From: Rhinopithecimicrobium faecis
GTDB taxonomy: Bacteria; Bacteroidota; Bacteroidia; Sphingobacteriales; Sphingobacteriaceae
Length of the DNA: 64,000 nucleotides
Assembly (NCBI GenBank): GCA_017942165.1
Contig: JAGKSB010000010.1
Location: forward strand, 1-64,000
Direction of reading: 5' to 3'
The position numbers were made by a program, and so were the translations under genes. Below the pieces are notes generated by a model, which did not search any database, was not told where the DNA came from, and saw only the letters and a list, made by a program, of their open reading frames with translations. Positions 51,304-59,063 of the stretch are shown piece by piece (the stretch's first letter is position 1; each line of letters starts with the position of its first letter).

Positions 51304-51882
51304 TTATATGTAATAAAACCCAATTTTACTATCATGATCCTGTATTAGCGAGGAACTGTCTGTATATTTCAATAAGTAATAAGTAATTATTAAATCGCCA
51401 ATAGCTGCTAATAAGAATATATAACCAAAGAAGCATAAAAAAATGTTTCCGACTATTAATGCTATTAAAACAGGAAATAGCCCTAAAATAACAGCTGGCA
51501 TAATAATACCAATAATGTAAATGTTTCTTTTAAGAGGAATTTTGCAGTGACAGTAGGGAGTATATGATTCTTTTAAAATGCCAAATTTTATAGATTTGAA
51601 ACTAACGTTTTTTGAAAATATTACCCAAGTAATTCCATGAATTAACTCATGAAGGATAGCTCCCAGTATAATAATTATAAAAGAACATATAGAATATATA
51701 AAAAAATCTATGTAATTTTTTCCGTGTAAAATTTGTTGTAAATAATCAATTTTAAATTGATCTATCCAAATATAATAATACAACCAAAATACAATAATAG
51801 TTATCGGTAAAATTAATTTTAACATGATAACGTTTGCGTATTTTTCAGTAATAGTGTACTCTTTTTTTTTATGATTATTCAT
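51304..51882 (-). CDS. Membrane zincin-like metallopeptidase (DUF3267-type)
   Basis: 192 residues with about four to five membrane helices. The zinc motif HELIH lies at residues 78-82 at the end of a helix (IIILGAILHELIHGITWVIF). A downstream segment KESYTPYCHCKIPLKRN and the membrane block 'IIGIIMPAVILGLFPVLIAL' follow the DUF3267 ('putative zincin peptidase') layout. It lies downstream of the two minus-strand bacteriocin precursor genes, separated by a perfect hairpin. The position suggests immunity or peptide maturation, but this is inference. AT-rich like its neighbours. Confidence 0.7.
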   Translation of the reverse strand: MNNHKKKEYTITEKYANVIMLKLILPITIIVFWLYYYIWIDQFKIDYLQQILHGKNYIDFFIYSICSFIIIILGAILHELIHGITWVIFSKNVSFKSIKFGILKESYTPYCHCKIPLKRNIYIIGIIMPAVILGLFPVLIALIVGNIFLCFFGYIFLLAAIGDLIITYYLLKYTDSSSLIQDHDSKIGFYYI

Positions 51883-52007
51883 TTAGTATAATTATATTTT
51901 TTTAAGGTTCGTACCCCTATTAGAACTCTAAATATAAATATTTTTAATACATACATTATGCTTGTGAACATTTTTATAATACTAAATATTTCCCCATTGA
52001 TATTAAG

Positions 52008-52049
52008 AACCATATGCATAATATTATCCATAATATTATGCATATGGTT
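52008..52049. terminator. Perfect AT-rich palindrome downstream of the minus-strand precursor genes
   Basis: A stem of 19 bp (AACCATATGCATAATATTA and its complement) encloses a four-base loop. It lies between the second precursor gene and the zincin gene. On the minus strand no T run follows, so it may work as a transcript-stabilising 3' end or attenuator as much as a terminator. Confidence 0.65.
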
Positions 52050-52071
52050 TTATAAGAATTTGGAATTTGCA

Positions 52072-52248
52072 TTAAGAAAAAAGTTCTTTTGCAGCCGCAA
52101 CTAAACCGACACCAGCCGCTACCGCGCCGAAACCAATTCCAACACCTTTAAGAATTGCTCCTGCAGCAATTACAGGTAATATTCCTCCATCAATTTGAAT
52201 TAATTCTTCTTGACTTAATGTTTCTAAGTTTAATGATAGATTTTCCAT
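52072..52248 (-). CDS. Double-glycine-leader bacteriocin precursor A
   Basis: 58 codons. The leader MENLSLNLETLSQEELIQID ends in GG at residues 21-22, the cleavage site for C39-type exporters. The predicted mature peptide has 36 residues, starts ILPVIAAGAILKGVG, is hydrophobic and rich in Gly and Ala with several G-x-x-x-G or G-x-G spacings, and ends AAKELFS. This is the form of class IIb bacteriocins. It starts two bases after the stop of precursor B and is a paralogue of it (I/F-L-P-x-I-A at the mature start). The exporter genes lie upstream on the same strand. Confidence 0.8.
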   Translation of the reverse strand: MENLSLNLETLSQEELIQIDGGILPVIAAGAILKGVGIGFGAVAAGVGLVAAAKELFS

Positions 52249-52250
52249 AA

Positions 52251-52421
52251 TTATTTTTCTTTATTTGCTAAATACATACCTACTCCAACTGCGCTTAAAC
52301 CTAATTGAACACCCCAAATTACACCAATAGCAATAGCTGGTAGAAAACCACCATCAATTTCTACCATTTCATTGAATTCAATTTCTTGTAGATTGTTAGA
52401 TTTTAAATCTAAATTTTCCAT
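52251..52421 (-). CDS. Double-glycine-leader bacteriocin precursor B
   Basis: 56 codons. The leader MENLDLKSNNLQEIEFNEMV continues EIDGG, cleavage after residue 25. The predicted mature peptide has 31 residues: FLPAIAIGVIWGVQLGLSAV, then GVGMYLANKEK, with G-x-x-x-G spacing and a basic tail. The start of the mature part matches precursor A, so A and B are tandem paralogues. It is preceded by the leader box at 52432-52478 that also precedes precursor C. Translation of precursor A probably follows by reinitiation. Confidence 0.8.
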   Translation of the reverse strand: MENLDLKSNNLQEIEFNEMVEIDGGFLPAIAIGVIWGVQLGLSAVGVGMYLANKEK

Positions 52422-52431
52422 AATTATTGTT

Positions 52432-52478
52432 TTATAAAATTATTTCCTACTCTATTTTTAGCCTTTTTGGAATCCTGC
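52432..52478 (-). promoter_or_regulatory. Leader box shared by the two precursor operons (minus copy)
   Basis: On the minus strand it begins GCAGGATTCC and ends AGAGTAGGAAATAATTTTAT plus AA, just before precursor B. The last 20 bases or so are identical to those before precursor C at 58064-58111, and the start GCAGG-x-T-x-CC is also shared. It is probably a promoter/operator or leader RNA element. Confidence 0.65.
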
Positions 52479-52516
52479 TATACTATAATTGAAGTACGAC
52501 ACTAAGATCTTTTAGT

Positions 52517-52834
52517 TCAATGCATAAAAAAAGCATTTGTAAAATTATTTAAAGAAAAGTTAACTCCAGCGTTTATGTTTTTTAAGTCAAGGTTATTTAT
52601 TTTTTCAATTTTAACCTCAATATTGATTGAATATCTACTTTCGTAATAATATGTGTTTTTAGTTCTATCAAATTTAATAGGAGCACCTTCTTCTTTTAAA
52701 TATTCTATTATTCGTGCTAACCTAGAGATAGAGATATTTAGACGTTTTGCAAATTCTTGTTGAGTCCCTGTCTTAGCACTGCTTATTAACTTATTAATAA
52801 GATTTATTCTATCTATATAAAAGTATAATTTCAT
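52517..52834 (-). CDS. Small helix-turn-helix protein, probable local regulator
   Basis: 105 residues. The N-terminal part is a winged HTH of the HTH_11 type: RINLINKLISSAKTGTQQEF, then AKRLNISISRLARIIEYLKE and a wing 'EGAPIKFDRTKNTYYYESR'. The rest (from about 70) is short and polar with no clear fold. HTH proteins with this GAPI wing are found beside peptide-export genes in Bacteroidota. It lies 25 bases after tolC and about 95 bases before precursor B, whose leader box it may bind (inference). Confidence 0.65.
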   Translation of the reverse strand: MKLYFYIDRINLINKLISSAKTGTQQEFAKRLNISISRLARIIEYLKEEGAPIKFDRTKNTYYYESRYSINIEVKIEKINNLDLKNINAGVNFSLNNFTNAFFMH

Positions 52835-52859
52835 AATGCAAATTTTTAAATGGTAGCGA

Positions 52860-54182
52860 TTAATTAATATTTCCTGTAATAAAGTATTTATGTGTCAGCA
52901 GACTAAATAATGCATTGTATTTAGAACGAATCATTTCGGCTTCTGACTTTATCAAATTATTTTTAATATTATTGACATCGTATATAGATGCTTTCCCTGC
53001 AATAAAGCTTAGCTTGGAGTATTCTAATGACTCTTTCGTAGCTAAGAAAGCTTCTTTTGATATTTCATATTGCTTATGATTTTCTTGACAATCTATCTGG
53101 ATCTTTTGAAGCATTTGTATTTGTTGATTTTCTTCATATTGAGTCAAGAGATCTATCTCATTTTTGCGTAAGGAGTTTTGTTGTAGTAACCTTTTAAATT
53201 TTCCTTTATTAAATATTGGAATAGTGACAGCAACAGCTACTTGTTGAGCGAAGTTATCCTTTGTTTGCATGAATAGAGAACTTGTATTACTTGCTTTAAA
53301 AGCATTAAAATAGGTTGTACCTAAACTTGCAGATCCTTTTATCAATGGGTAATTACCTGATTTTATAATTTTAGCTTCTATATTTAATTCTAGGAGTTGG
53401 TTTTTAAATTTTAGAAATATTGGATTTCTAGCAAGCACGGATTTTATATCGTAATCTTTATTAGTTTCTATTTTATCATTAAAAACATCTTCTTCTAATA
53501 AGGGATCATCTGTGTTTAATAGATTGTAATCAGGGTAACTCATAAGCTGAGCTAATGTCATTTTTTTTAATTTCAACTCTTTATGATATTGTTGATATTG
53601 TTGTTTTTCTCTAGCTAATGTTGCTTTAACTTCAGAAACTACTGCAGGAGCAGTAACACCCACTTTAGCTCTTTTCTCTGTTTTATCTAATAATTGAATT
53701 GAAAAATATATTGCAGATTCTTGCGAATTGACTAAGGATTGAGCCAATAGTACTTCTAAATATCCTTGTAACACCTTTAATGTTAAATCTCTTATTAAGA
53801 TATCTTTTTCTATACGCTCTTGATTTGCTTGTATAGTTGCTTTTTTAGCTTGATTTCGAAAATAGTTATATTGATATAGTACTATTTCGGAATTAATTCC
53901 TACGTTACTATTAAAATTGTCGTTACGTTGAATAGTCCCAAAAACATCTTGTGAATGCCCAAAGGTACTATATCCATTTAGATACCCGCCTACAGAAGGT
54001 AATCGCTCTCGTAAAGCCATATCATGATCAAGGTTTTTTACAGCGATTAAAACATCTTGACGTTTTAGAGGAATATTATGCTGGATAGCATATGAGATAC
54101 ATTCTTCTAAAGGCCATCTTTTTTGTGAAAAAACATCTAATCTTAGCAAAGAGAATAATATGATAAATAAGAAATACTTCAT
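52860..54182 (-). CDS. TolC-family outer-membrane efflux protein
   Basis: 440 residues from the ATG at 54182, whose first base overlaps the last base of the exporter's stop codon (TAATG). The signal peptide is MKYFLFIILFSLLRLDVFSQ. The OEP repeats are visible as two halves of long amphipathic helices: WPLEECISYAIQHNIPLKRQ with 'VGINSEIVLYQYNYFRNQAK', and VAVTIPIFNKGKFKRLLQQN with KLSFIAGKASIYDVNNIKNN. It would form the outer-membrane tunnel for the peptide exporter encoded immediately upstream. AT-rich, like the rest of the locus. Confidence 0.9.
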   Translation of the reverse strand: MKYFLFIILFSLLRLDVFSQKRWPLEECISYAIQHNIPLKRQDVLIAVKNLDHDMALRERLPSVGGYLNGYSTFGHSQDVFGTIQRNDNFNSNVGINSEIVLYQYNYFRNQAKKATIQANQERIEKDILIRDLTLKVLQGYLEVLLAQSLVNSQESAIYFSIQLLDKTEKRAKVGVTAPAVVSEVKATLAREKQQYQQYHKELKLKKMTLAQLMSYPDYNLLNTDDPLLEEDVFNDKIETNKDYDIKSVLARNPIFLKFKNQLLELNIEAKIIKSGNYPLIKGSASLGTTYFNAFKASNTSSLFMQTKDNFAQQVAVAVTIPIFNKGKFKRLLQQNSLRKNEIDLLTQYEENQQIQMLQKIQIDCQENHKQYEISKEAFLATKESLEYSKLSFIAGKASIYDVNNIKNNLIKSEAEMIRSKYNALFSLLTHKYFITGNIN

Positions 54183-56344
54183 TAGTTTAATACAATAGAT
54201 TGTTTCTTCCACATTTCTTTATAAGCCGAATCCAATGTGAGTAAATGATTATGCGTTCCTTGCTCTATAATTTGACCGTCTTTCATAACAATAATATGCT
54301 CCGCATTCGCAATAGTGCTTAGTCGATGTGCAATAACAAGTAAAGTTTTTCCTGTAGCTCGTAATTTTTCAAAAGCTCGTTGGATTACTAACTCTGTTTC
54401 AGAATCAAGAGCCGAAGTAGCTTCATCTAGGATTAATATATCAGGGTTTCTATATAATGCCCTCGCTATTGCTATTCGCTGTCTTTGACCTCCTGAAAGC
54501 ATTGTCCCATTCTCACCAATATATGTTTCTAATCCTGAGGGTAATTTTTCAATAAAGCTTACCATATCAAGCTCTTTGATAATATCGACGATACGTTGAA
54601 AGTTAGGGGTTTGATCTCCTAGAGCAATGTTTTCGATGATATTACCAGAGAAAAGTTCTATTTGTTGAGGAACAACAGCAATCCTTTCTCGGAGTGAATG
54701 ATTAGATATGTATTTAATATCATAATTTCCAATAGAAATTTTTCCAGATTGTAAAGGGTATAGGCTTTGCAATAATAAGCCTAATGTTGTTTTGCCGCTT
54801 CCGCTTTCTCCGACGATTGCTGTCATTTTTCCTTTTTCGAATCGGCAACTGAAATTGTCGAATACTTTAACCCTAGATCCATAAGAAAAATGAATGTTTT
54901 CAAAAGTTATATCACCAATTTGATCACTGATTATATCTGTTTTTTCTCCATTTTCCTCACGTTCTAAATCCATTATTTCAAACAAACGATCTGCAGCAAT
55001 TAAGGCATTTTGTAATGTTCTGTTCATTCCTATTAATTGACCAATAGGGCCTGTTAGATAGCCTATTAAAGCATAAAATGAAAGTAATTCTCCAGGTGTA
55101 ATTGTTCTATCAATTACATAATATGACCCTACCCAAAGTAAAATAATAGTAAAAAGACGTGAAAGGAATTCACTTGACGTTCCTGAAAACAAACCATTTA
55201 GTATGGATTTATAGATGGTTTTTAATAATTGACTAAATTTTTGATCTGTTCCACTATTAAAATAAGTTTCTATGCCAAATTGTTTAATTGTTTTAACAGA
55301 GTTGATTGATTCTACTAAATGAGACTCAAGATCAGCTCCTTCTTCCATTAATTTGCGTTCTACTTTTTTATTTAGTTTATTAGATAACCAATAAACAAAT
55401 ACATAAAAAGGAATAACTAAAAGCATAATTAATGCTAGCTTCCAGTAGTAAGAAAACATCAAAGCAAAAGAAAAAAAGACGATTAAAACATTTACTACCG
55501 TTTGAATAGCAACATCATTGATAAAAGCCCTAATTTTAACAGCATCATTAACCCTAGAAATGATTTCCCCTACTTTCATCGTGTCGAAAAAACGTTGAGG
55601 GAGACTCAATAGATGCTTGTAATATCCTAATATTAAATATTTATCTATACGTTGGCCAGTTTGTAGTACCATGACGCTTTTTATCGTGCCTATTAGTAAT
55701 TGTACGAGCAAAATGACTATCATAATAACAGATAGTAAATTTAATAAGCGTACGTTACCATCTACGAGCACATAATCTGTTATTTTCTGAATATATATGG
55801 ATGTGGATAAGCCAAGTAAAGTATATACAGCTGCTCCTACTAAAGCTTGTAAAATAATAGATTTGTGTGGTTTTATAAGATTCCAAAATCTTTTGAAAGA
55901 ACTTGTTTTTTCATTACGTTGCGTAAAATATTCATTTGGTTCTAATAAGATTAAAACCCCAGACCAGATTTCTTGAAACTCATCTATAGTATATTTTTGT
56001 GTCTTTCCTGGCCCAGGGTCCATTACGGTGATTTGATCCTTATTAACTTTATATATTACGACGTAGTGATGAAGATGGCCATTTATAATTACGTGAGCTA
56101 TAGCAGGTAAAGGAATGTTTGGTAGGGCATCCATTCCTCCTTTTACACCCTTAGCTGTAAATCCCAATTCTTGTAAACCCTGAATCATACCAAGTACGTT
56201 AGTCCCTCTTGTATCGGTATGGGAATATTGTCTTATTTTAGCTATTGGAAGATCTAAGCCATAATAACTTGAGATGGAAGCAAGGCAAGCAGCTCCACAA
56301 TCACGAATATCATGTTGTTTGATAAGTACTGGTTTTTTTTTCAT
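54182..56344 (-). CDS. Peptidase-containing ABC exporter (C39, PCAT type)
   Basis: 720 residues. The N-terminal C39 domain cleaves double-glycine leaders: nucleophile Cys16 in IRDCGAACLAS, His93 in HLHHYVVIY, Asp109 in VMDPGPG. Six membrane helices follow (about 160-440), then an ATPase domain with Walker A GESGSGKTTLG, signature LSGGQRQRIAIARALYRNPD and Walker B ILILDEATSALD. It should remove the leaders of the four GG precursors in this locus and export the cores. It is flanked by hlyD (9 bases upstream) and tolC (one-base overlap), giving a complete type I-like export set. Confidence 0.94.
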   Translation of the reverse strand: MKKKPVLIKQHDIRDCGAACLASISSYYGLDLPIAKIRQYSHTDTRGTNVLGMIQGLQELGFTAKGVKGGMDALPNIPLPAIAHVIINGHLHHYVVIYKVNKDQITVMDPGPGKTQKYTIDEFQEIWSGVLILLEPNEYFTQRNEKTSSFKRFWNLIKPHKSIILQALVGAAVYTLLGLSTSIYIQKITDYVLVDGNVRLLNLLSVIMIVILLVQLLIGTIKSVMVLQTGQRIDKYLILGYYKHLLSLPQRFFDTMKVGEIISRVNDAVKIRAFINDVAIQTVVNVLIVFFSFALMFSYYWKLALIMLLVIPFYVFVYWLSNKLNKKVERKLMEEGADLESHLVESINSVKTIKQFGIETYFNSGTDQKFSQLLKTIYKSILNGLFSGTSSEFLSRLFTIILLWVGSYYVIDRTITPGELLSFYALIGYLTGPIGQLIGMNRTLQNALIAADRLFEIMDLEREENGEKTDIISDQIGDITFENIHFSYGSRVKVFDNFSCRFEKGKMTAIVGESGSGKTTLGLLLQSLYPLQSGKISIGNYDIKYISNHSLRERIAVVPQQIELFSGNIIENIALGDQTPNFQRIVDIIKELDMVSFIEKLPSGLETYIGENGTMLSGGQRQRIAIARALYRNPDILILDEATSALDSETELVIQRAFEKLRATGKTLLVIAHRLSTIANAEHIIVMKDGQIIEQGTHNHLLTLDSAYKEMWKKQSIVLN

Positions 56345-56353
56345 GGAACTAGG

Positions 56354-57448
56354 CTAAGACTTTTTATTACTTAAATTGGGATTAAATATTTCATCCGCAC
56401 GATCGAACAAGAGTTGCCAAAGTGTACGGTCTACTAAATAAAAGCGAGCAGTAAATGTGTTACCTTTTCCTACAAAAACTTTATCACCATTTGGTAGGCT
56501 TAAGTAATTAGCATTTATATTGCAACGAACTTTAAAATAAGTTCCTGTTTGTTGGTTCGAAATTATGTTATAGTCAATGTCTTGAACTTTTCCTGTCAAG
56601 AAACCCCATTGATTATAATTATAGGTGTCTATTTGAAAACGGACATCCTGGTTATATTTAATATATCCAATTGCATTTGGGGGAATCATGCATTCGGCAA
56701 TTAAATTTTCCTCTGGTGAAATTTCTAATATTTCTTGACCTTGAATAATTTGACTTCCTTGTTGAATGCCAGTAAAATTAATTATAGTACCACTTTGAGG
56801 AGATTTTATGACATAGTTTTCACCATCTATATAAAGAGACTGTTGATCTGATTCAATAGATTTATGTTTTTGTTGTAGGTCTATGAGTTTAGAACTCCAT
56901 TGAGCGACTTGTTGTTTCTCAATGGAGGACATTTGATTCCGTAAATGTTCATAAGAGTATTTACTTTTGTCAAAATCTGCTTGTGATATTACTCCTTGTT
57001 TAACTAATATATCGTTTCTATCTAAATCAAGCTTTGCTAATGTTGCCTGTGATTTGACCTCAGATAAGCGTTGTTGCATAGAAGCAAGCTCCATTTTATA
57101 TAGGACACTAGATATATTTTTATAATTTTTAGATAAGAGGTTTTTTAAGTCTATAATATGCTGATTATATTCAGATTCTATGTTCTGATTGAGCTCTAAT
57201 TTGTTTTGTAAATCTTTAGCTAGTATCACCAAAAGAGTATCCCCTTTCTTTACCTTCTGGTTATTGTGATTGATTTTACTTTCTATCACACGACCACTTA
57301 CCAGTGATATAAGTTTACTGTTTTCATTTTGTGGCCTAATAATACCTGGAGCAGATACAGAGATAGGTATTTTAATCAGAGGCAAGGAAATTACAATAAT
57401 TATAATTAGGGTTATTAATATTAAATATATAATGTTTGTTTTTTTCAT
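56354..57448 (-). CDS. HlyD-family membrane-fusion protein
   Basis: 364 residues. One N-terminal membrane helix (IIYLILITLIIIIVISLPLI) is followed by the first lipoyl-like half (PISVSAPGIIRPQNENSKLI, SGRVIESKINHNNQKVKKGD). A coiled-coil hairpin spans about 75-205, then the second half (YVIKSPQSGTIINF, IQQGSQIIQGQEILEISPEE) and a beta-barrel. It bridges the C39 exporter and TolC across the periplasm. It is the first gene of the minus-strand export operon. The upstream region (57449-57689) is AT-rich and no promoter box could be assigned with confidence. Confidence 0.9.
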   Translation of the reverse strand: MKKTNIIYLILITLIIIIVISLPLIKIPISVSAPGIIRPQNENSKLISLVSGRVIESKINHNNQKVKKGDTLLVILAKDLQNKLELNQNIESEYNQHIIDLKNLLSKNYKNISSVLYKMELASMQQRLSEVKSQATLAKLDLDRNDILVKQGVISQADFDKSKYSYEHLRNQMSSIEKQQVAQWSSKLIDLQQKHKSIESDQQSLYIDGENYVIKSPQSGTIINFTGIQQGSQIIQGQEILEISPEENLIAECMIPPNAIGYIKYNQDVRFQIDTYNYNQWGFLTGKVQDIDYNIISNQQTGTYFKVRCNINANYLSLPNGDKVFVGKGNTFTARFYLVDRTLWQLLFDRADEIFNPNLSNKKS

Positions 57449-57689
57449 TAAATAAAGTGTTATGCACTATTTTACGAAAAATTATTTCATTATAGTATAT
57501 TCTCTTGTGTTGAAAAAGAAAAATGTAGAGGAATGTCTAATGCTGTTCTGTGCATTTGAGGTTTATTATGAAGTATACTCTAAATACAACATAATAAACT
57601 AATATGAGTAATAATTATCTAATGACTAATCTACGTTATTTATAACTACTCTATTTTTATAGCGATTTTCATATATTCAATCGTAGGAC

Positions 57690-57970
57690 TTAGTTAGGAA
57701 GGCTAATTACCTTGCAGGCTCTGCTAATGCTTGTCTGATGCTGAGCAATCACATAAGCAGCCATATCCTTTTGCTGACAGGGCTTTAGAACTTTTTTGAC
57801 AAGACGTCTTTGAGATCTTATTATCTAGCACTGAGGCTGCCTTGCCTGCTTCATATTATTTAATCGCAGAAACGATCTGTGATACACTGATTTTTGACTT
57901 TTTCATCTTACTATTTTAAAGTTACGATTTTTCGCCTTTTATATAGTCCAATTTCTTGGGAGGGTTACGA
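57690..57970 (-). mobile_element. Decayed IS3-family element (orfA relic and one end)
   Basis: On the minus strand from the ATG at 57906 the frame reads MKKSKISVSQIVSAIK, then a TAA where the family has Glu, then YEAGKAASVLDNKIS. This is the start of IS3-family OrfA. Further on, in another frame, AAYVIAQHQTSISRACKVIS resembles the RRACRV start region of OrfB. The stretch between is deleted. A likely terminal repeat, GTAACCCTCCCAAGAAATTG on the minus strand, lies at 57950-57969. The element is dead and sits between the two halves of the bacteriocin locus. The rest of the 57449-58063 gap shows nothing coding. Confidence 0.65.
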
Positions 57971-58063
57971 AATAATCAAATAGATGAGTATTTTCTTTAA
58001 TAAATATATAAATGCTTTTTAAAGACATTGATCGCAATTATTTTAGCGTTATAATTAAATATT

Positions 58064-58111
58064 GCAGGTTACCGAAAATGCTATTAAAGAGAGTAGGAAA
58101 TAATTTTATAA
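58064..58111 (+). promoter_or_regulatory. Leader box shared by the two precursor operons (plus copy)
   Basis: It begins GCAGGTTACC and ends AGAGTAGGAAATAATTTTAT plus AA, ten bases before precursor C. It matches the box before precursor B (52432-52478) on the opposite strand, with the last 20-odd bases identical. Confidence 0.65.
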
Positions 58112-58121
58112 CTTAAAAAAA

Positions 58122-58292
58122 ATGAATAATTTAGATTTAAAGAAAATTTGCGTTCAAGAATTGGATACTGAATCAATGGCGATGATTGAGGGGGGAAATG
58201 CATGGAGATGGTTAGCTTTACCTGAGTTTTACGATGCAGTTACGGACGCATGGGAAGGGCTAAAAGCTGGATTTAAAGATGGAAATTCTTAA
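58122..58292 (+). CDS. Double-glycine-leader bacteriocin precursor C
   Basis: 56 codons. The leader MNNLDLKKICVQELDTESMA continues MIEGG, cleavage after residue 25. The predicted mature peptide has 31 residues, starts NAWRWLALPEFYDAVTDAWE and ends GLKAGFKDGNS, aromatic-rich, amphipathic, with a G-x-x-x-G motif. The leader shares M-N/E-N-L-D-L with precursor B. A second precursor and a CPBP protease gene follow on the same strand, the arrangement of a two-peptide bacteriocin with immunity gene. No exporter is encoded on this strand; the minus-strand exporter would serve both pairs. Confidence 0.78.
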   Translation: MNNLDLKKICVQELDTESMAMIEGGNAWRWLALPEFYDAVTDAWEGLKAGFKDGNS

Positions 58293-58328
58293 TAGTTAGC
58301 TATTTATTAATATTTAAAATTAAAAAAA

Positions 58329-58508
58329 ATGAATAATATAGATAACAATCAATTTATTTTATTGAGTGAAAATGAACTGATAAATATAGATGCAGGTGGA
58401 TTTTGGGGAGATGTAGGATATGTAGTTGGTTATATCGCCGGAAAATTTGCTAAAGCTCAAGAACTTGAACTTGACGGTATTGGTGGCCCTACAGCTAGAC
58501 ATACATAG
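58329..58508 (+). CDS. Double-glycine-leader bacteriocin precursor D
   Basis: 59 codons. The leader MNNIDNNQFILLSENELINI continues DAGG, cleavage after residue 24. The predicted mature peptide of 35 residues begins FWGDVGYVVGYIAGKFAKAQ and contains a G-x-x-x-G-x-x-x-G zipper (G-YVV-G-YIA-G), then an acidic stretch and a polar GGPTARHT tail. Glycine zippers mediate helix pairing in class IIb bacteriocins, so C and D may act as a pair. It lies 36 bases after precursor C and 75 before the CPBP gene. Confidence 0.78.
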   Translation: MNNIDNNQFILLSENELINIDAGGFWGDVGYVVGYIAGKFAKAQELELDGIGGPTARHT

Positions 58509-58583
58509 TATTCCTTGTGTAGCTATTATTTTTCGTAGTAGCTACACATTTTATCGTTTTAACATCAAATAAATATAGTATTT

Positions 58584-59063
58584 ATGTTTTTTTTAAAACT
58601 TAAAAATACATTTGATAAATTAGATTTAACCGCTCTTTTTTTTGTTTTTTTAGCTATAAAATTTTTTTTATCGTGGTTATTCGGTCAAATAATTTATTCG
58701 GTATTCCCAAATAAATTAAGCCATCCATTATCAGAAGCCCCAGCTTATGAATTTTTCACTGCAATTGTTTTGTTTGCCCCAATTTTTGAAACCTTTATTT
58801 TTCAATTTTTATTTTTTTATTTAGGAGAGAAACTGAAACTAAAGAGCTCTTTCATTGTAATTATTTCTGCAGTACTATTTGCTATTTCGCACCATACATC
58901 TTTAGCATATATAGTGTTAACCTTATTTTCTGGACTATTTTATAATATTATATACCTCAAAATCAAAAACAAGTATAAAGCAGGAATAGCTTTCTTATTT
59001 ATAGTAGGCATCCATGCTCTTTATAATTTTGTAGTTTGGTTAAATCTGGTATTTCTTAAATAG
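58584..59063 (+). CDS. CPBP-family intramembrane protease, candidate bacteriocin immunity protein
   Basis: 159 residues with four to five membrane helices. The CPBP/Abi motifs are present in modified form: motif 1 APIFETFIFQF near 65-75 (E-T-x-x-F-Q instead of EExxxR), motif 2 FAISHH near 99-104 (FxxxH), and motif 3 HALYN at 144-148 (HxxxN). CPBP proteins are known to confer self-immunity in plantaricin-type loci. The gene follows precursors C and D on the same strand, which fits that role. A Gln in place of Arg in motif 1 is a form often seen in Bacteroidota members. Confidence 0.8.
   Translation: MFFLKLKNTFDKLDLTALFFVFLAIKFFLSWLFGQIIYSVFPNKLSHPLSEAPAYEFFTAIVLFAPIFETFIFQFLFFYLGEKLKLKSSFIVIISAVLFAISHHTSLAYIVLTLFSGLFYNIIYLKIKNKYKAGIAFLFIVGIHALYNFVVWLNLVFLK

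Follow-up and report, generated by a model that had tools for sequence, protein, structure and literature searches.

We analysed a stretch of 64,000 nucleotides (hereafter the window; positions 1 to 64,000 of contig JAGKSB010000010.1) from the 3.14-Mb genome of Rhinopithecimicrobium faecis. Its positions 51304-59063 probably hold a class IIb-like bacteriocin locus in which two cassettes share one export platform. The minus strand carries, in this order, hlyD, a gene for an ATP-binding cassette (ABC) exporter with a C39 peptidase domain, tolC, a winged helix-turn-helix (wHTH) gene, the genes of two precursors with double-glycine (GG) leaders, A and B, and a gene for a membrane zincin. Diverging from hlyD on the plus strand are the genes of two further precursors, C and D, followed by a CPBP protease gene (Table 1). 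These reading frames are all present and intact and their domains were identified with Pfam and NCBIfam, which bears out the gene content, with four GG peptides in two pairs, given in the original prediction, an earlier annotation of this DNA. The GC content of the locus is 0.29-0.35, against 0.36-0.45 across most of the window, in agreement with its description there as AT-rich.

Exporter and precursor peptides

The C39 peptidase (1.1e-35), ABC membrane (7.7e-51), and ATPase (2e-30) domains of the exporter lie in one chain (Pfam), as in a peptidase-containing ABC transporter (PCAT), and its score against TIGR01193 is 520.5 bits, with a cut-off of 523.9. Its gene is separated from hlyD by 9 nt and overlaps tolC by 1 nt (TAATG), provided that tolC starts at its ATG. 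It is the sole full-length C39-ABC gene in the whole genome, and this, together with the intact frames and the domains found, supports the predicted combination of one exporter with two unlike precursor pairs.

A strict GG-leader pattern, which misses one of the four precursors, picked out three open reading frames of 40-70 amino acids (aa); when the stretch was randomised 500 times with a Markov model, the mean was 0.01 and the maximum 1, so the number of such frames is beyond chance. The two precursors of each pair are adjacent, as in class IIb systems, and all four mature peptides contain GxxxG and lack cysteine. Mature A and B each have a net charge of +1 and are hydrophobic, with a grand average of hydropathy of 1.05 and 1.65, respectively. 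The calculated average masses of the predicted mature peptides, without modification, are 3215.9 (A), 3322.0 (B), 3528.8 (C), and 3724.1 (D). Precursor A passes the class IIb model TIGR03949 (lactobin A/cerein 7B; 24.7 bits, cut-off 21.5), B lies just under the cut-off with 21.0 bits, and the model is matched by all six A/B-type members. C scores 16.9 bits against NF038034 (lactococcin G-beta) and D 23.5 bits against NF038035 (lactococcin G-alpha), both below the cut-off of 37; among related peptides, the alpha model is matched by four of seven D types and the beta model by three of six C types. Judged from the sequences, this sub-cut-off likeness to lactococcin G is due partly to the leader. 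The earlier statement that the mature sequences match no nameable bacteriocin is therefore too strong, with A above a class IIb cut-off, B near it, and C and D resembling lactococcin G beta and alpha below theirs.

Searching solved structures with profiles of C and D returned nothing beyond leader similarity and chance, and Pfam Bacteriocin_IIc stayed below its cut-off throughout the genome, with matches arising in control genomes too. An alignment of seven D sequences was too diverse for a collection scan; one of three sequences found relatives in Sphingobacterium only (S. faecium, S. siyangense, and S. prati).

Table 1 Features of the locus, in window coordinates
Feature	Positions	Strand	Basis
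DUF3267 membrane zincin (HELIH), candidate immunity or maturation protease of A/B	51304..51882	-	PF11667 3.6e-18; behind A/B in L045
Precursor B: MENLSLNLETLSQEELIQIDGG / ILPVIAAGAILKGVGIGFGAVAAGVGLVAAAKELFS (leader / mature)	52072..52248	-	TIGR03949 21.0 bits; PF10439 5e-5; GxxxG
Precursor A: MENLDLKSNNLQEIEFNEMVEIDGG / FLPAIAIGVIWGVQLGLSAVGVGMYLANKEK (leader / mature)	52251..52421	-	TIGR03949; homologue in L045
DUF805b-like RNA leader of A/B, 22 nt before ATG of A	52444..52480	-	RF02914 31.3 bits, E 8.7e-6
Probable promoter/operator of A/B, palindrome diverged	52481..52519	-	place of TAATTTAG and GTTGATCAAC in relatives; homologous stretch upstream of the C28 copy
105-aa wHTH protein, exporter-linked	52517..52834	-	HTH_11 1.7e-4, below cut-off; conserved next to exporter
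Double-glycine-type motif INNLDLKNINAG, wHTH residues 79-90	52565..52600	-	conservation among homologues
TolC-family outer membrane protein, ATG start at 54182, 440 aa	52860..54212	-	PF02321 1.3e-27
C39-peptidase ABC exporter (PCAT), 720 aa	54182..56344	-	Pfam/NCBIfam domains
HlyD-family membrane fusion protein	56354..57448	-	PF13437 1.8e-12
DUF805b-like RNA leader of C/D, 22 nt before ATG of C	58062..58099	+	RF02914 32.1 bits, E 4.5e-6
Precursor C: MNNLDLKKICVQELDTESMAMIEGG / NAWRWLALPEFYDAVTDAWEGLKAGFKDGNS (leader / mature)	58122..58292	+	NF038034; homologues in further loci
Precursor D: MNNIDNNQFILLSENELINIDAGG / FWGDVGYVVGYIAGKFAKAQELELDGIGGPTARHT (leader / mature)	58329..58508	+	NF038035; family motif IGGPTANH
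CPBP/Abi intramembrane protease, candidate immunity protein of C/D	58584..59063	+	PF02517 (Rce1-like) 1.6e-8

A second C39-ABC gene, broken into pieces (C28:269343-270430; L102:7314-10553), lies beside a radical-SAM/SPASM-like gene and is a relic of a separate locus for a ribosomally synthesized and post-translationally modified peptide. Between hlyD and the C/D cassette, positions 57715-57906 of the minus strand may hold a relic of an IS3-type transposase orfA, reading MKKSKISVSQIVSAIK, then an internal stop, then YEAGKAA...; a Pfam search of it gave no match.

RNA leader and upstream palindrome

Each precursor pair is preceded by a leader resembling the DUF805b RNA (Rfam RF02914, clan CL00115). 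The RNA stands here before genes of the GG bacteriocin type and not before the DUF805 genes after which it is named. The two copies share the exact 22-mer AGAGTAGGAAATAATTTTATAA, and both align over the full model (1-35 of 35) with AGAGUAGG and the P1 stem, in which each has one non-standard pair as drawn. The whole genome contains only three strong RF02914 sites, the next best scoring 16 bits. The third (C28:92626-92663) belongs to a decayed cassette (L101:7627-8780; G000:C28:92626-93779), in which the RNA is followed by a GG gene with a frameshift and no remaining start, and then by a gene for a 142-aa CPBP protein; the DNA upstream of this cassette resembles the 3' end of the wHTH gene. Neither the RNA leaders nor the decayed cassette, nor the GG-type motif at the C-terminus of the wHTH protein, figured in the original prediction.

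RF02914 sites are found in 53 of the 94 genomes of the genus Sphingobacterium, in which we place the window genome together with the relatives that carry D-type peptides. We recovered 125 sites, 42 of which passed a strict GG test, 41 credibly; these 41 directly precede GG precursors at a spacing of 19-25 nt (64 nt in one case). The other sites of the genus, and most sites phylum-wide, precede other small, often secreted proteins, which rules out that the RNA is specific to bacteriocins. At L171-L175 there are tandem arrays of small MPWY... proteins, each with its own DUF805b RNA and sometimes with two RNAs in tandem. The RNA is rarely studied, and the literature searched yielded no paper on it.

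We also identified a second helix, P2, formed between the three bases that precede the GAAAA loop and the three that follow GAGTA. It is fully paired at 92 of 115 sites, compared with 0-3 when the partners are slid by 1-3 nt, a control that preserves relatedness; in a separate phylum-wide sample 27 of 30 sites were paired against 13.5 +/- 2.3 after shuffling, which does not preserve it. The covarying pairs include GCC/GGC, TCC/GGA, GCT/AGC, CTC/GAG, GTC/GAC, and CCC/GGG. The Rfam match does not show these bases as paired, and we therefore read P2 as a pseudoknot. The A/B copy forms it (UUCC/GGAA).

Most GG-linked DUF805b sites of the genus carry the palindrome GTTGATCAAC upstream, and the 60 nt upstream of the RNA contain TTGATCAA at 24 of the 41 GG sites against 1 of 83 other sites. 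All eight closely related loci examined in other genera of the family have the order HTH gene, TAATTTAG, GTTGCAAC, RNA, GG gene, and the order HTH gene, palindrome (GTTGCAAC), RNA, GG gene is also found in most of a wider set from these genera. The palindrome has diverged in the species of the window.

Cargo and proteases in related loci

Our comparison set comprised 40 loci around exporter homologues. The order hlyD, C39-ABC, tolC, HTH is largely constant within the genus, and the genes after the HTH gene vary by species. The closest relative (L041, exporter identity 94%) carries a different, single peptide. The exporter is not tied to the peptides of the window: in relatives it adjoins many other GG cargos. 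The small frames themselves recur, A/B in L045 and D-type peptides in eight loci, the window included.

A membrane protease is paired with each precursor pair, as originally proposed. The zincin accompanies A/B in both loci that have them, the window and one other species (L045), and CPBP follows D-type peptides in seven of eight loci (the window, L042, L044, L049, L051, L052, and L061, the exception being L043). The C/D-CPBP group is inverted relative to the exporter in L049 and lies on the far side of hlyD in the window, so it behaves as a unit. The zincin homologues retain HELIH or HELLH. In the CPBP protein, E69, H103, H144, and N148 are invariant, corresponding to the catalytic residues of Rce1-like proteases. 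Self-immunity through CPBP proteins is established for plantaricins and other bacteriocins. Two relatives have a second Rce1-like protein, of 208 aa, between precursor D and CPBP (L042:13259-13885 and L044:13179-13805).

Upstream of hlyD or the exporter, several relatives (L042-L044, L047, L048, L065, and L067) encode a short charged GG/AG peptide (for example, MEKKLKEINVRELGENEVVEIEGG / SQRKDAKSASWFESILNYFKP), flanked by an XRE regulator gene on one side and a rhomboid-like gene on the other. It lies behind the same ACAACCT-GGTTGTGG box as hlyD and, from its sequence, looks like a peptide pheromone module. We did not find this module at the window locus, and matches to the box in the genome are at control level.

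Proposed model and alternative readings

Several known systems resemble this locus in part. Class IIb bacteriocins of the lactobin A/cerein 7B (TIGR03949) and lactococcin G/enterocin 1071 (NF038034/NF038035) types likewise have adjacent GG pairs with GxxxG and no cysteine, and a dedicated membrane protein beside the pair. Here, in contrast, the host is Gram-negative with HlyD and TolC, there is an RNA leader, one exporter stands with several cassettes, and C and D are net acidic and below the model cut-offs, D having a C-terminal IGGPTA-H motif. Bacteroidetocins are also GG peptides of Bacteroidota with a C39-ABC exporter; they are class IIa-like peptides with cysteines, accompanied by a transmembrane protein and a thiol oxidoreductase but by no identified immunity gene (PMC6671954). 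In the window locus, by contrast, the mature peptides are free of cysteine, an oxidoreductase gene is absent, and each pair is followed by a protease gene. Colicin V-type class II microcins are similarly exported by a C39-ABC, HlyD, and TolC machinery in Gram-negative bacteria (CvaAB-TolC; PMC10352776), but here the cluster also contains the outer membrane protein gene and a wHTH gene, and the cargo comes as swappable cassettes. A genome-wide prediction of class II potential in Bacteroidota exists (PMC12648078), so finding such peptides in the phylum is not in itself new. For the platform architecture, the RNA leader, and the GG-tailed regulator, no description was found in the literature searched.

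We propose that the small wHTH gene is transcribed in one operon with hlyD, the C39-ABC exporter gene, and tolC. Every cassette would carry a separate promoter in which a palindrome marks the likely start of transcription; the DUF805b pseudoknot RNA would lie some 22 nt ahead of the start codon, and one or two GG precursors and a membrane-protease gene would follow. The exporter would cleave the precursors after GG, and the mature peptides would leave through HlyD and TolC. A with B, and C with D, would then act as partners through their GxxxG helix-packing motifs and jointly permeabilise the membrane of related bacteria, the producer being protected by the zincin (A/B) and by CPBP (C/D). The wHTH protein probably regulates the palindrome sites; with the DUF805b RNA it would co-regulate all cassettes, and new cargo could therefore be plugged in without an exporter of its own.

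Although we consider such a locus likely, a number of observations weigh against it. Antibacterial activity is a prediction from sequence. The net charges of mature C and D are negative (-2 and -1), unlike those of typical class IIb peptides. Both RNA copies stay under the Rfam gathering score of 35.6, a threshold passed by many related copies of this leader; P2 is interrupted by one A-A mismatch in the C/D copy, and DUF805b RNAs also precede many non-GG genes. The C/D-CPBP loci include near-identical pairs, so that the independent cases number fewer than seven, and the first CPBP motif is degenerate (ETFIFQ instead of EExxxR). Finally, the zincin family accompanies other cargo as well (L047, L051, and L053), so the link between A/B and the zincin comes down to two loci.

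The last point bears on the role of the zincin, which may be immunity or maturation. A PF11667/DUF3267 protein, TmcP, is reported as the intramembrane protease that removes the leader in the biosynthesis of TMcin, a membrane-inserted bacteriocin (PMC13252029). Of the earlier claim that each pair has its own candidate immunity gene, the consistent association of cargo and protease therefore stands, and zincin immunity becomes one option only. It is possible, if less favoured, that the zincin matures A and B as TmcP does and that the producer is protected otherwise; the strong hydrophobicity of both peptides and the occurrence of zincins with other cargo fit this. The TMcin leader is removed by TmcP itself, however, whereas the GG leaders of A and B are intact and a C39 exporter is present, which leaves a second leader protease unneeded, and L051 has zincin and CPBP together behind a C/D-type pair. 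We find it quite improbable that the peptides are signals exported by the same machine and not antibacterial. The pheromone-like peptides upstream of hlyD in relatives and the acidity of C and D would suit signalling, but the former are absent from the window locus, and paired GxxxG peptides, class IIb model matches, and linked CPBP genes fit bacteriocins. Very improbable, in our view, is that both pairs are decaying, unexpressed passengers: the third cassette of the genome has indeed decayed through a frameshift and a lost start, a possible transposase relic lies beside C/D, and the palindrome has diverged, but the frames, RNA cores, and protease genes of the window are all intact, and A/B are closely kept in a second species.

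A further reading, compatible with the bacteriocin model and adding a mechanism to it, concerns the wHTH protein. Its C-terminus consists of INNLDLKNINAG and the tail VNFSLNNFTNAFFMH, with hydrophobic residues at -12, -7, and -4 followed by AG, and the motif may be a docking or cutting site for C39. The protein would then itself be a C39 substrate: by binding or cutting the motif, the exporter would free a tail of 12-25 aa, which might signal, or would inactivate the regulator, tying expression to export capacity. We regard this as rather unlikely. The following observations agree with it. The strict motif (hydrophobic -12, -7, and -4, then AG or GG) is present in 20 of 24 homologues, compared with 5 of 179 other genes that are 80-200 aa long. 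All 18 aligned sequences share G90, and residue 89 is A or G in each of them. AlphaFold places a disordered tail (residues 88-105) behind a wHTH domain with a predicted local distance difference test score of about 90 at residues 10-60, for which Foldseek gave only weak matches, of BirA/NiaR type. With a score threshold of 79 bits there are 68 homologues, and at least 50 of them have a listed exporter within 6 kb. Of 20 exporter-adjacent homologues in other genera, 11 have the strict motif and about 16 keep AG or GG, whereas it is missing in 15 of 18 low-scoring homologues elsewhere, most of which end near residue 75-80. The ratio of non-synonymous to synonymous change (pN/pS) of the motif is 0.01-0.34 in most clades, indicating protein constraint.

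Against this, three of the exporter-adjacent homologues end before the motif, the window/L041 pair has a motif pN/pS of 0.92 (on few changes), and a C39 cut after a folded N-terminal domain is putative for this protein. The tail is weakly constrained (pN/pS 0.3-1.2) and shows reduced synonymous change, consistent with promoter DNA of the cassette overlapping it, and a box resembling TGCATTGA is present upstream of cassettes that have no HTH gene as well. The idea of a conserved tail (NAFFVH) acting as a pheromone is weakened by the same reduced synonymous change and by the likeness to the promoter DNA of these cassettes; the tail is probably not a conserved signal. The combined scheme, in which the exporter reads or cuts the regulator and so couples expression to free export capacity, with palindrome and DUF805b pseudoknot tying every cassette in, is a conjecture from sequence that we hold to be unlikely.

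To our knowledge, Bacteroidota have so far yielded few narrow-acting peptides. If the proposed model is true, the signature of a palindrome, a DUF805b RNA, and a GG start about 22 nt downstream would reveal bacteriocin cassettes that escape homology searches owing to the rapid swapping of their mature peptides, and the DUF805b RNA would gain a concrete set of target genes. If the regulator does have a built-in C39 cleavage site, it would be a simple means of matching peptide production to export capacity.

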